Assembly (NCBI GenBank): GCA_001604185.1
Contig: LVAV01000043.1
Span: 124,001-188,000 of the forward strand
Direction: 5' to 3'
DNA from: Clostridiales bacterium Firm_16
Lineage (GTDB): Bacteria > Bacillota > Clostridia > Saccharofermentanales > Saccharofermentanaceae
DNA length: 64,000 nt
Every line of letters starts with the position of its first letter. The stretch's first letter is position 1. Of this stretch, positions 32,687 through 42,213 are shown in pieces. Below the pieces are notes generated by a model that ran no database searches, was not told where the DNA came from, and was given only the letters and a program-made list of their open reading frames with translations. The position numbers were made by a program, and so were the translations under genes.

Positions 32687-33616
32687 TTACTCGAAGAGCG
32701 GGGTGGAGAAATATCTCTCGGCTGTATCCGGAAGGACAGTCACAACTGTCTTTCCTTTACCGAGTTTCTTCGCCATGGCAATGGCAGCCGCTACATTGGA
32801 GCCCGACGAAATACCGCACATCAGGCCCTCCTTCCGCGCAAGATCTTTTGCCGTACCGATGGCGTCATCATCGGATACTACGTATACATCTTCGAAGATC
32901 TCTGTGTTCAGGTTCTCCGGGATCAGACCGTCGCCAATGCCCATCTGCAGATGGGATCCGATATTACCACCGGCCAGGATCGCAGCGTTCTCCGGCTCAA
33001 CTGCCCAGATCAGGATGTTGGGGTTCTGGGCCTTCAGTACTTCGCCGATTCCGGAAAGCGTTCCGCCGGTACCGATGCCGGCGCAGAAACCGTCGATCGG
33101 TCCTGCTACCTGCTCCAGGATCTCTACGCCTGTGTGGTGGCGATGCACCATCGGGTTAGCGGGGTTCGTAAACTGCTGGGGAACGAAGACATTCGGGTCT
33201 TCTGCTGCCATCTTCTCGGCAAGTTTCAGGCACTCGTCGATGGCTTTGCCGATGTCGCCGTCATCATGGATAAGCTTCACTTCTGCACCGTAGTGCTCCA
33301 CCAGATAGCGGCGCTCGCAGGACACGGAGTCCGGCATGATGATGATCGTTCTGTATCCGCGGACGGCACCGACCAGTGCCAGACCGATTCCCTGATTTCC
33401 GGATGTAGGCTCCACGATGATCGTGTCCTTCGTGATCTTTCCATCTTTCTCCGCCTGCTCGATCATGTTCAGAGCCGTTCGGGTCTTGATGGAACCGCCT
33501 ACATTCAGTCCTTCGTATTTCACTAATACCTGCGCCGAATCTTCACCGACCATTCTCTGGGATAAACGGATCATCGGTGTATGTCCGACTGCTTCCAGTA
33601 CATTGTTATAAACCAT
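32687..33616 (-). CDS. cysK: Cysteine synthase (O-acetylserine sulfhydrylase)
   Basis: 309 residues, fold type II PLP enzyme. Lys44 in NVGGSIKTR forms the Schiff base; EPTSGNQGIGLA binds the substrate carboxylate (Gln where E. coli CysK has Thr, a variant common in Clostridia and archaea); GIGTGGTLSGIG binds the PLP phosphate; GISSGSNVAAA closes the site. It makes cysteine from O-acetylserine and sulfide. It is transcribed away from the speD leader. GAGGA precedes the ATG. Confidence 0.94.
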   Translation of the reverse strand: MVYNNVLEAVGHTPMIRLSQRMVGEDSAQVLVKYEGLNVGGSIKTRTALNMIEQAEKDGKITKDTIIVEPTSGNQGIGLALVGAVRGYRTIIIMPDSVSCERRYLVEHYGAEVKLIHDDGDIGKAIDECLKLAEKMAAEDPNVFVPQQFTNPANPMVHRHHTGVEILEQVAGPIDGFCAGIGTGGTLSGIGEVLKAQNPNILIWAVEPENAAILAGGNIGSHLQMGIGDGLIPENLNTEIFEDVYVVSDDDAIGTAKDLARKEGLMCGISSGSNVAAAIAMAKKLGKGKTVVTVLPDTAERYFSTPLFE

Positions 33617-33651
33617 TTTCTTTTGTCCTCTTTCAATCTCACTAAGTTAGT

Positions 33652-33680
33652 ATTTTATTACCTGACAGCCTCATACGCAA
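33652..33680 (-). promoter_or_regulatory. Probable cysK promoter
   Basis: Minus strand TTGCGT (33675-33680), 17-base spacer, TAAAAT (33652-33657), about 30 bases before the cysK start. Confidence 0.5.
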
Positions 33681-33744
33681 GCAGGTATCTGTCCTGCACA
33701 AATTTTTCCCTGAAAATTCGGCATCCGAAATCTTCCTCTATCTA

Positions 33745-33773
33745 TTGCAAAAGCGCTGTATCCGTGGTATCTT
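33745..33773 (+). promoter_or_regulatory. Probable promoter of the speD leader
   Basis: TTGCAA (33745-33750), 17-base spacer, TATCTT (33768-33773). Transcription would start near 33780, at the first stem of the leader. Confidence 0.5.
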
Positions 33774-33778
33774 TTTGT

Positions 33779-34067
33779 CATTGCGGACGCGCACCATGAC
33801 GGTGCACTGCAATGTTTGACCGCCACGAGTTTCGTGGTTAGTAGGCCATACGGACAGCCGGGTCAAATGCCGAAGCGGCAGTGATTTACTGCCTTATTGA
33901 GTGGGAAGTTCGAATTCCCTTAATGTTTATAAGTTGGTTACTTTACTTGTGAATAATCAATAAGAGTGCGATGAGCTTTGGCGCAGGACCTCTTCTCCGT
34001 AGCGTATGGTACGTTTCCCGGATGATTCTATCTCAAGTGAAGGCCCACCTTGGAAAGGATGGATCAA
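33779..34067 (+). ncRNA. Long structured 5' leader of speD (candidate cis-regulatory RNA, class unassigned)
   Basis: Stems visible in order: CATTGC/GCAATG (33779-33784, 33809-33814) enclosing GCACC/GGTGC; TTTGACC/GGTCAAA (33815-33821, 33861-33867) closing a three-way junction with CCACGA/TCGTGG and GGC/GCC arms; then two mutually exclusive hairpins, TGCCG/CGGCA (33868-33880) and GGCAGT/ACTGCC (33877-33893); then GGGAA/TTCCC (33903-33919). A further 150 bases run to speD. No known riboswitch consensus (SAM, FMN, purine, lysine, T-box) is recognisable by eye. Confidence 0.55.
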
Positions 34068-34859
34068 ATGGCGCATGAGAAGCTTCGTCTATACGGCTTT
34101 AACAATCTGACCAAATCCCTGAGTTTCAATATCTACGATGTGTGCTATGCCAAGACCGCACGTGAGCAGAAGGACTATATTGCCTATATCGACGAGCAGT
34201 ATAACTCGGAACGTCTTACCAAGATCCTGACGAACCTGACAGAGATGATCGGTGCCAAGGTACTGAGTATCTCCAAGCAGGACTATGAACCACAGGGTGC
34301 GTCCGTTACCCTCCTCATTGCCGAGGAGTCCATGATCCCGCGTATCGAGACCGAGACCGTCGTGGCCCATCTGGATAAGAGCCACGTTACCGTACATACC
34401 TATCCGGAATTCCATCCGGACACCGCTATCGCTACCTTCCGTGTAGATATCGATGTAGCGACCTGTGGTGAGATCACCCCGCTTTCTACTCTGGATTATC
34501 TGATCGGAAGTTTCGATTCCGATATCATCACCATGGACTACCGTGTCCGTGGCTTTACCCGTGATATTTCCGGCAAGAAGATCTTCCGTGACAAGAACAT
34601 CGTATCGATCCAGGACTTCATCGATAAGAAGACCCTGCAGCGTTACGACGCTATCGACATCAACGTATACCAGGCCAATATGTACCACACCAAGATGCTG
34701 ATCAAGGAAGTGGATCTGCAGAACTACCTGTTCAAGACCGATGTCTATGAGATCGCGCCGAAGACGCGTCTGGAGATCACGAATAATCTCAGAAAAGAAA
34801 TGATCGAGATCTTCTCGGGAGCCAATGTTTTTGAGTCCCCGGACGAGGATAACGATTGA
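34068..34859 (+). CDS. speD: S-adenosylmethionine decarboxylase proenzyme
   Basis: 263 residues, the long gammaproteobacterial-type SpeD seen also in some Clostridia. The chain self-cleaves before Ser105 in [15 protein letters not shown] to make the pyruvoyl cofactor; the [13 protein letters not shown] Cys and [10 protein letters not shown] are conserved. Decarboxylated SAM is the aminopropyl donor for spermidine. The start at 34068 is preferred because AAAGGA lies 8 bases upstream; ATG at 34059 is too close to that site. The next gene, a basic amino-acid decarboxylase, overlaps its stop. Confidence 0.95.
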
Positions 34860-36343
34860 TCCTTAGAAATGGAAGCGAAACACGCGTGAGCAGAGAGTAT
34901 CAGAGAAATCAGGATCGGGCGCCGATCGCCGAAGCACTGGAGGCCTACTCTTCCGAGCGGGTCGTTCCTTTCGACGTGCCGGGTCATAAGCATGGCCGCG
35001 GTAATCCCGAGCTGACTGCTTTCTTAGGGGAGCGCACCATGGTGCTGGATGTGAATTCCATGAAGCCCCTGGACAATCTCTGCCATCCTGTTTCCGTGAT
35101 TAAAGAAGCCGAAGAACTGGCGGCCGATGCTTTCGGCGCCAAGGCGGCATTCTTCATGGTGGGCGGCACCACTTCTTCTGTACAGGCCATGGTCTTCTCT
35201 GTCGTTAAGCGTGGGGAGAAACTCATCGTTCCTCGTAATGTACATCGCAGTGTGATCAACGCCATGGTCCTCTGTGGAGCCATTCCGGTCTATGTGGACC
35301 CGGGTGCCCATGAGACCTACGGCATCGCGCTGGGCATGAAGCTTTCCGATATCGAGGATGCCATCCGTGAGAACCCGGATGCGAAAGCCGTCTTCGTGAA
35401 TAACCCCAGTTACTATGGTATCTGTTCCGATCTCAGCGGCATCGTGAAGGTAGCCCATGCCCATGGCATGAAGGTCATCGTGGATGAAGCCCACGGTACG
35501 CACCTTTCTTTCTCAGACCGTCTCCCCGTTTCCGCTATGGCGGCGGGAGCCGACATGGCCGCGGTGTCCATGCACAAGTCCGGCGGATCACTGACCCAGA
35601 GTTCTTTTCTCATGATCGGAGAAGGCCTCTCTGCAGAATATGTCCGCCAGATCATTAACCTGACCCAGACCACTTCCGGATCTTACCTGTTCCTGTCCAG
35701 TCTGGACCTCTCGAGAAAACGTCTCGCGCTCCATGGGCGGGAACTTTTCGATAAGGTGATCGACATGGCGGAATATGCCCGTGCGGAGATCAACTCCATC
35801 GGCGGCTACTATGCTTTCGGTTCGGAACTGGTGGACGGAAATGCCGTCTATGATTTCGACAAGACCAAGCTGGTCATCCATACTCTCCCCGTAGGTCTTG
35901 CGGGTATTGAGGTCTATGACCTGCTGCGTGATGAATACGATATCCAGATGGAGTTCGGTGATTTCGGCAACTGTCTGGCTTATCTCTCCGTTGGCGACCG
36001 CATCCGCGATCTGGAGCGTCTGGTTGGCGCCCTGGGTGAGATCCGTCGTCTCTTCGGTAAAGACCCCATCACGTCTCTTCCCAGTAACTATATCGCGCCT
36101 ATCGTGGCGCTCTCACCTCAGGAGGCATTCTATGCTGACAGTGAGCATGTTCCCTTCGCCTCTGCCGAGGGACGTGTCGCGGCGGAGAGCATCATGTGCT
36201 ATCCTCCGGGCATACCTGTACTGGCCCCGGGTGAGAAGATCACTTCTGAGGTTCTGGAATATCTCGTTTATGCTCAGGAGAAGGGCTGTCAGATCACAGG
36301 TGCAGAGGACAGTACTCTTCAGACTTTACGCGTCGTGAAATAA
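34856..36343 (+). CDS. Orn/Lys/Arg decarboxylase (SpeA-like arginine or lysine decarboxylase)
   Basis: 495 residues, the short Bacillus YaaO/SpeA type fold I PLP enzyme. [13 protein letters not shown] opens the PLP domain, [13 protein letters not shown] binds the phosphate, [12 protein letters not shown] carries the PLP-ring Asp, and [13 protein letters not shown] the Schiff-base Lys. It should decarboxylate arginine to agmatine or lysine to cadaverine; exact substrate unclear. The best start is TTG at 34856, overlapping the speD stop and preceded by GAGGA; a GTG 10 codons later is an alternative. No speB or speE is in the window. Confidence 0.92.
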
Positions 36344-41289: not shown

Positions 41290-41298
41290 CCTACCGTA

Positions 41299-41436
41299 AC
41301 TTCGGGGCGGGGCGTAATTCCCCACCGGCGGTGATGCATCCGATATGACCTCAATATAAGGCAGGATGCGAGCCCGCGAGCATTAGCAGAACCGGTGTGA
41401 ATCCGGTGCCGACGGTTAAAGTCCGGATGGAAGAAG
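41299..41436 (+). ncRNA. FMN riboswitch (RFN element)
   Basis: The conserved core is easy to read: GGGGCGGGGCGTAATTCCCC, then ACCGGCGGTGATG, a variable arm, GAGCCCGCGAGCA, then AACCGGTGTGAATCCGGTGCC, GACGGTTAAAGTCCGGATGG. These are the six-stem junction sequences of the FMN aptamer. It is followed by an intrinsic terminator and then ribU, so FMN binding should stop transcription. Confidence 0.98.
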
Positions 41437-41496
41437 AATCGATAGCTGTCTAGATTCCTGAATCGAGGATTTAGCGGCAACTGATGACTTTTCTAG

Positions 41497-41530
41497 GCGA
41501 TCGTTCCGAAGCGGAACGGTCGCTTTTTGT
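41497..41530 (+). terminator. Riboswitch-controlled terminator
   Basis: Stem GCGATCGTTCCG (41497-41508) with CGGAACGGTCGC (41512-41523), AAG loop, then TTTTT. It lies 60 bases after the FMN aptamer and 47 bases before ribU, the place of the expression platform. Confidence 0.93.
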
Positions 41531-41577
41531 ATGCTTTCGGAGAATCGGATCCTGTCAGGAGTTTGGAGGTAAAGAAA

Positions 41578-42213
41578 ATGACAGAAACGAATGATCTCAA
41601 GAACCAGAACAAGAAGAGAAAAAGCCTGATCTACAAGATCGCGCTTACGGGTGTCATGACGGCCCTGGCCGAAGTGCTCATGATGCTCGAGATCCCGCTG
41701 CCGCTGATGCCGGGCTTCCTGAAATACGATTTCAGTGATATCCCTGCTCTCTTTGCAGGTTTCGCCTGCGGACCGGTTGCCGGAATCATCGTGGAGTTCC
41801 TCAAGAATCTGATCCACATGCCTTTCACCGGCACCCAGTATATCGGTGAGGCGGCCAACTTCATTTCCGGAAGCATCTTCGTCTTCGTCGGCGCTTTTAC
41901 CTATGCCAAGATGCGCAACAAGAAGGGTGTGGCTCTTTCCCTGGTGCTGGGCACCGTCGCGTTGACCATCGCAACCAGCTTCGTCAACTACTTCTTCAGT
42001 CTGCCGCTTTACGAGTCCGTCATGGGCTTCCCGATGCCGGCCATCATCGACATGTGCGACAAGGCCAACACCTTCTGCCACATCTCATCCAAGCTGGACG
42101 TGATCCTGATGACCTTCGTTCCTTTCAACATCTTCAAGGGCATCACTATCTCCATCGTCGCGTTCCTCTGCTACCTCCCGCTCCACGGGATCCTGAGCAA
42201 GAAGGTGGACTGA
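41578..42213 (+). CDS. ribU: Riboflavin ECF transporter S component
   Basis: 211 residues with about six hydrophobic helices. IALTGVMTALAEVLMMLEIPLP matches helix 1 with the A-x-x-x-A pattern that packs on EcfT; KYDFSDIPALFAGFACGP and GEAANFISGSIFVFVGA are RibU blocks. It binds riboflavin and works with the shared EcfA-EcfA'-EcfT module, not present here. The FMN riboswitch upstream supports the substrate. GGAGG lies 8 bases before the ATG. Confidence 0.95.
   Translation: MTETNDLKNQNKKRKSLIYKIALTGVMTALAEVLMMLEIPLPLMPGFLKYDFSDIPALFAGFACGPVAGIIVEFLKNLIHMPFTGTQYIGEAANFISGSIFVFVGAFTYAKMRNKKGVALSLVLGTVALTIATSFVNYFFSLPLYESVMGFPMPAIIDMCDKANTFCHISSKLDVILMTFVPFNIFKGITISIVAFLCYLPLHGILSKKVD

Follow-up and report, generated by a model that had tools for sequence, protein, structure and literature searches.

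A conserved leader RNA of polyamine genes in Bacillota as a candidate polyamine riboswitch

The locus and its leader

The window analysed here is a 64,000-nucleotide stretch of contig LVAV01000043.1 of Clostridiales bacterium Firm_16 (positions 124,001 to 188,000). On its forward strand, speD and a decarboxylase gene follow a long structured leader (Table 1). The decarboxylase can be placed in the speA/ldc type; among the matches listed, no NCBIfam model scores above its cut-off. The genes speE and speB are clustered with a carboxynorspermidine synthase homologue on another contig of the same genome (G000:C113:136101-139069). Elsewhere in the window, an FMN riboswitch (96.5 bits) is present at 41294-41442 (+), and the ORF behind it (41527-42213) resembles by eye a riboflavin-type transporter.

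Table 1. Features of the speD leader and its operon in the window
Feature	Position	Strand	Remarks
Promoter-like pair	33745..33773	+	TTGCAA 33745-33750, 17-nt spacer, TATCTT 33768-33773; sequence only
Genus-specific 5' hairpin CATTGC...GCAATG	33779..33814	+	folds in 15/15 genus copies, interior variable
P2	33815-33821/33861-33867	+	encloses hairpin P3 and the invariant core
RF02440 SpF59_sRNA (ldcC RNA) match	33817..33873	+	57.8 bits against a gathering score of 37.2; model 1-54 of 54
P3 hairpin	within 33822-33840	+	inside P2; in the minimum-energy fold
Invariant core AGGCCATACGGACAGCCGGGTC	33843-33864	+	enclosed by P2
P5 hairpin GGCAGT/ACTGCC	33877..33893	+	covariation; in the minimum-energy fold
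P6	33895-33900/33957-33962	+	encloses P7 and P8; in the minimum-energy fold
P7	33901-33923	+	inside P6; in the minimum-energy fold
P8	33926-33934/33945-33953	+	in the minimum-energy fold; 3' strand proposed to switch partners
P9 AAGAG/CUCUU	33962-33966/33990-33994	+	placed by eye; outside the minimum-energy fold
Alternative P8 partner (predicted)	34030..34049	+	pairs with 33933-33953; overlaps strands hiding the ribosome-binding site
Fold hiding Shine-Dalgarno AAGGA	34023..34066	+	Shine-Dalgarno at 34055-34059
speD, S-adenosylmethionine decarboxylase (E. coli type)	34068..34859	+	TIGR03331, 397.8 bits (cut-off 255.8)
speA/ldc-type Orn/Lys/Arg decarboxylase	34856..36343	+	PF01276 (228.3 bits), PF03711

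An earlier note on this DNA, made from the letters alone, had pointed to many perfect stems before speD-speA, and these are borne out. The region 33779-33940 contains 8 perfect stems of at least 5 bp, against a mean of 5.2 (sd 2.3) in mononucleotide shuffles, and 4 of at least 6 bp against a mean of 1.1. The four longer stems are 33779-33784/33809-33814, 33815-33821/33861-33867, 33823-33828/33832-33837, and 33877-33882/33888-33893. The fold energy of the leader (33779-34067) is -97.4 kcal/mol, with a z of -2.84. Its minimum-energy fold includes P3, P5, P6, P7, and P8, and lacks P2, P4, and P9. A genus-specific long-range pairing, 33868-33876/33975-33983, takes the place of P9 in this fold; 14 of the 15 genus copies have its core GCCGAAGC/GCTTTGGC in full, and the lack of variation leaves nothing for a covariation check.

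The promoter-like pair that the note had also seen exists, though it has only 8 of 12 consensus bases, under the scan threshold of 9/12. Among genus copies that extend far enough upstream, 14 in all, a regex finds the exact pair in 13, and it is visible by eye in the 14th, L011. Its position suggests that the RNA probably starts near 33780, upstream of all the stems.

Known family and distribution

The note had found no known riboswitch in the leader. Covariance search corrects this in part: cmscan of 33600-34100 returns RF02440, and no other family at E<=1. RF02440 is a 54-nt Rfam model typed as an sRNA, and it covers the P2/P3/core part only, whereas sequence conservation spans about 200 nt. 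The note's suggestion of an undescribed RNA is therefore supported only in part, since 54 nt of the element were already on file.

RF02440 is matched in all 7 homologous loci scanned at gathering, in 19 of 59 relatives, and in 18 of the 398 genomes sampled from the phylum to which the window belongs (Bacillota). A 21-base core pattern occurs in at least 118 stretches of genome contigs, among them, in the matches listed, contigs of Paenibacillus, Blautia, and Faecalibacterium. One match, L125, was dropped by eye as a GC-rich chance match of the pattern. A covariance model, R2, built on the 59-pair structure described below, finds 25 of the 398 genomes, the window's included (86.2 bits, one RNA copy in the genome), and all 25 loci carry polyamine genes. 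The exact core pattern has no copy in viral contigs; in plasmid records it has one, on a 2.7-Mb Paenibacillus replicon. A contig labelled as a Spirochaetes MAG carries the core (L091; 54 bits, RF02440) with divergent P6-P9 before a speD-like gene, and its presence there may come from transfer or misbinning.

By its name, RF02440 traces back to pneumococcal F59; SP0916 of the same organism is presumably a polyamine decarboxylase gene. In the accessible text of a 2012 study, F59 (82 nt) is an sRNA candidate between SP0915 and SP0916 (PMC3395615). The accessible text of a 2025 study, from which known cis-regulators were excluded, equates F59 with the sRNA candidate M7 at 869478-869804 (PMC12323649).

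Genes behind the leader

The genes behind the element were compared in 130 distinct loci. Their selection relied on a DNA pattern, the Rfam model, or similarity at the DNA level, and never on the genes; exact duplicates and loci with less than 700 nt downstream were left out. Eight reference proteins for scoring came from the window and from homologous loci. The SpeD, SpeE, SpeB, NspC, and PotA representatives exceed curated NCBIfam cut-offs. The representatives of PotB, PotC, PotD, and carboxynorspermidine synthase (CANSDH; 407 bits against a cut-off of 800) are below theirs, and are therefore family-level calls.

The first reference gene is polyamine-related in 130 of 130 loci and begins 174-652 nt from the core. 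It is speD in 44 loci, speA/ldc-type in 36, potA in 26, and CANSDH in 24. The commonest gene orders are SpeD-SpeA (23) and PotA-PotBCD (23), followed by CANSDH-NspC (14) and SpeA-SpeE-SpeB-CANSDH-NspC (13). Comparison therefore shows a cis association with polyamine genes. A small RNA that acts in trans, as the Rfam type and the pneumococcal catalogue entries F59 and M7 imply (PMC3395615 and PMC12323649, as far as their accessible text goes), would stand before such genes by chance. This is highly improbable: all 130 copies lie on the same strand directly before polyamine genes, the element is coupled to a terminator or a ribosome-binding site, and premature termination in a leader would also yield short 5' transcripts.

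Spermidine is made via the SpeD/SpeE route or via a carboxyspermidine route, and putrescine is common to both. The carboxynorspermidine synthase route requires no SAM, and Pot genes import polyamines. The operons thus represent two spermidine routes and Pot-type uptake, all of which an excess of spermidine would be expected to repress, and this makes spermidine the likely signal. Of the polyamine, SAM, or arginine sensing proposed in the note, polyamine fits best; SAM and arginine do not fit CANSDH-NspC and Pot operons.

A riboswitch for SAM, decarboxylated SAM, arginine, agmatine, or putrescine would be in line with speD as the most frequent first gene, and putrescine would also be linked to Pot-type uptake as well as to both routes. 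Such a ligand is nevertheless unlikely. The CANSDH-first loci follow the SAM-free route, the potA-first loci serve uptake, and a putrescine OFF switch would silence putrescine's own consumers. SAM-family matches are absent at E<=1 in 33600-34100, and at gathering in the 7 homologous loci.

Conserved structure

The non-redundant structure set holds 92 of 115 loci; it omits 29 loci without a P6/P9-type end, 13 of them entries from the window's genus. Alignment A1 comprises the window and 63 of the 92, picked by length and identity (64 sequences). P9 of the window is shifted by one base in A1, so that its coordinates are given by eye. Alignment A2 comprises 21 hand-picked sequences.

The 59-pair structure is 91.3% paired in the 64 sequences of A1, against at most 45.1% when it is slid. 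Double changes affect 26 of the 59 pairs, against 15.0 in shuffles, and doubly changed cells number 228 against 72.5. Homologous leaders thus covary as a structured RNA would, and comparison shows covarying stems. P3 has double changes at 5 of 5 pairs, P5 at 6 of 6, and P7 at 3 of 5. The P2 pair that adjoins the invariant GACC/GGUC is doubly changed in 32 of 64 sequences, and the next pair outward is unpaired in 35. P8 is 93.3% paired, and the small hairpin within it only 50.7%.

P6 and P9 are nearly invariant in A1. The pairing of P6 (99.2%), like that of P9, is inflated because loci were selected by the 3' strands of these stems. With divergent members added, 2 of the 21 sequences of A2 show a change from A-U to G-C in P6, and 2 show one from U-A to C-G in P9. 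The covariation test does not reach P4 and the core GGCCATACGGACAGCCGGGTC, neither of which varies. Other loci can form an outer stem, P1, between the 5' flank and the sequence after P9, and in 52 of the 84 compared this duplex reaches p<=0.05. For the window's genus P1 was rejected, the duplex being significant in 1 of 15 copies, the window's own, at p 0.04.

Two mutually exclusive hairpins that share GGCA had been put forward in the note as the switch. Both exist (33868-33872/33876-33880 and 33877-33882/33888-33893, overlapping at GGCA 33877-33880), and the second, P5, covaries. As a conserved switch the pair fails, since the full GCCG/CGGC hairpin occurs in only 7 of 64 homologues (its 3-bp GCC/GGC form in 42). 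The mutually exclusive pairing with most support is found downstream of these hairpins.

Some members lack part of the element. The interior of P9, near-invariant otherwise, has disappeared in the window's genus as well as in a few further rows, and loci L177 and L179 have lost the 5' domain and keep only the 3' half behind promoter-like sequence (near position 1540-1700 of these loci). In these two the start of the RNA seems to lie shortly upstream of P8-3' and P9, and a stem seen by eye reads ACCAA/UUGGU in one and ACCG/CGGU in the other. A pattern for the 3' half alone, with up to 2 mismatches, is matched in 29 of 398 genomes. Among 20 matches taken up as loci (L181-L200), those with 0-1 mismatch adjoin polyamine genes in 11 of 11 cases; those with 2 mismatches look like chance, 7 of 9 being without a polyamine gene in the stretch examined. 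Copies linked to potA, such as L061, L101, and L119, have, as judged by eye, an altered P9 interior and one more hairpin, placed between TGCCGA and P5.

The two halves may be separate modules, or else one of them is dispensable. No binding site was located, because the P9 interior and the 5' domain are each lost in some members. For the copy in the window, the ligand or the affinity might be different.

The very high primary-sequence conservation would suit a protein site, at which an RNA-binding protein, polyamine-responsive or not, stabilises one of two folds. Invariant segments framed by covarying stems are, in contrast, typical of riboswitch aptamers, and a protein-binding leader is quite unlikely.

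Expression platforms

Of 84 loci, 68 have a transcription terminator behind P9 and 16 have none; dinucleotide shuffles give one in 1-3 of 84. These 84 loci are part of the 92 non-redundant loci. The 5' arm of the terminator is complementary to the P8-3' strand and its inner hairpin. The mean pairing energy is -13.4 kcal/mol, against -6.8 for shuffled arms, and 55 of 68 arms beat 95% of their shuffles while 13 do not. In the control, the terminator 3' arm beats 95% of shuffles against P8-3' in 8 of 68 loci. P8-3' is the best aptamer site for the 5' arm in 46 of 68 loci, and the best site is elsewhere in 22. Arms swapped between loci also pair well with P8-3' (mean -10.5) because the P8 strand is conserved. 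In 55 of 68 loci the native arm pairs better than the median of the swapped ones, and in only 19 does it rank within the best tenth.

The window's genus differs in platform, with a terminator in 0 of 14 copies. Here at least 4 of 5 bases of the speD Shine-Dalgarno are paired in all 14 genus copies folded. In the window it would be hidden by the minimum-energy pairing 34023-34033/34057-34066 (which includes 34028-34033/34057-34062) or by a weaker local hairpin, 34045-34051/34055-34062, with an energy of -6.0 kcal/mol in the window and between -2.3 and -10.2 in the genus copies. For the segment 34030-34049, which overlaps both, and its partner in P8, 33933-33953, the predicted pairing energy is -15.6 kcal/mol, where shuffles average -6.8. 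All 14 distinct genus copies that were scored give p<=0.014 for this alternative pairing; L015 was skipped by the regex and identical copies were merged.

Comparison thus shows conserved complementarity between competing strands. Platform and aptamer stem appear mutually exclusive by complementarity alone, in 55 of 68 arms and 14 of 14 genus copies, and a single P8 strand seems to serve terminator and ribosome-binding-site platforms alike.

A tiny ORF at 33923 (MFISWLLYL in the window) could point to attenuation by a leader peptide. The ATG and a short ORF are present in 14 of 14 genus copies (4 MFISWLLYL, 9 MLISWL, 1 MLISWLLNL). Leader-peptide control is nonetheless barely credible: the ORF has two lengths inside the genus, its ATG is absent at this place in the other A1 rows by eye, a Shine-Dalgarno at suitable distance is not seen, and P8 pairing accounts for the letters.

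Proposed mechanism

The element is a conserved, covarying, structured RNA that leads functionally linked genes. It probably represents a widespread cis-acting RNA class, for which the likeliest role is that of a riboswitch with a polyamine ligand, probably spermidine, that shuts the genes off. The ligand, its direct binding, and the OFF sign are what we infer. On the best reading, control is transcriptional in most taxa and translational in the window's genus.

The RNA would fold as P2/P3 around the invariant core, followed by P5, by P6 holding P7 and P8, and by P9. When the aptamer fold is stabilised, P8 would remain closed. Nothing would then keep the terminator from forming in most taxa, while the window's genus would have its speD Shine-Dalgarno hidden; the genes would be off in either case. 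When the aptamer is empty, P8-3' would act as antiterminator or antisequestor: it would pair with the terminator 5' arm, or in the window with 34030-34049, and expression would follow. The lack of P2, P4, and P9 in the predicted minimum-energy fold of the window counts against this reading, as does the Shine-Dalgarno being covered there by a pairing other than the local hairpin.

A further-reaching version is possible and is offered tentatively. The RNA would be a second class of spermidine riboswitch, much more widely distributed than the first, with two sensing modules, a 5' one (P2-P4) and a 3' one (P6-P9), which can be lost independently, and with one P8 strand driving either a terminator or a ribosome-binding-site fold.

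Relation to known systems

RF02440 is the same RNA as the P2/P3/core part of the leader. The two differ in extent and assignment. The Rfam entry is 54 nt long and filed as an sRNA; the leader element runs to about 200 nt, adds P5-P9, an expression platform, and in many loci an outer P1, and precedes polyamine genes in cis.

The spermidine riboswitch already validated (Salvail et al. 2023, PMC10853860, in its accessible text) has the four-stem fold of SAM-I, of which it is a variant, and counts 13 examples. The leader is like it in probable ligand, in the overlapping speB/speD/speE/ldcC gene set, and in the proposed transcriptional OFF logic, but is a different RNA. In the same accessible text, the authors are sure that more polyamine classes await discovery. 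The speF, odc1, and potE motifs are RNA elements near polyamine genes in alphaproteobacteria and Veillonella; they share the gene neighbourhood of the leader and differ from it in taxa and architecture, according to the accessible text of PMC8632094 and PMC11477304.

In the open-access literature, as far as its accessible text goes, the present RNA is not described as a polyamine switch; a description in subscription papers or supplements is possible. The open-access literature also has no paper under RF02440 or 'ldcC motif', and the accessible parts of PMC11109978 and PMC6429828 have no match to polyamine terms. The leader is accordingly judged to be a new class of RNA, though of a kind already known, and part of it is on file under a misleading name.

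Significance

Polyamine riboswitches have long been sought, and only one validated class, a rare one, was found in print. The leader RNA is a concrete candidate for such a riboswitch. If the reading is true, a pneumococcal 'sRNA' of the catalogues would become a leader, and a single aptamer would have both transcriptional and translational outputs. It would also explain how polyamine synthesis and uptake are controlled in many Bacillota.
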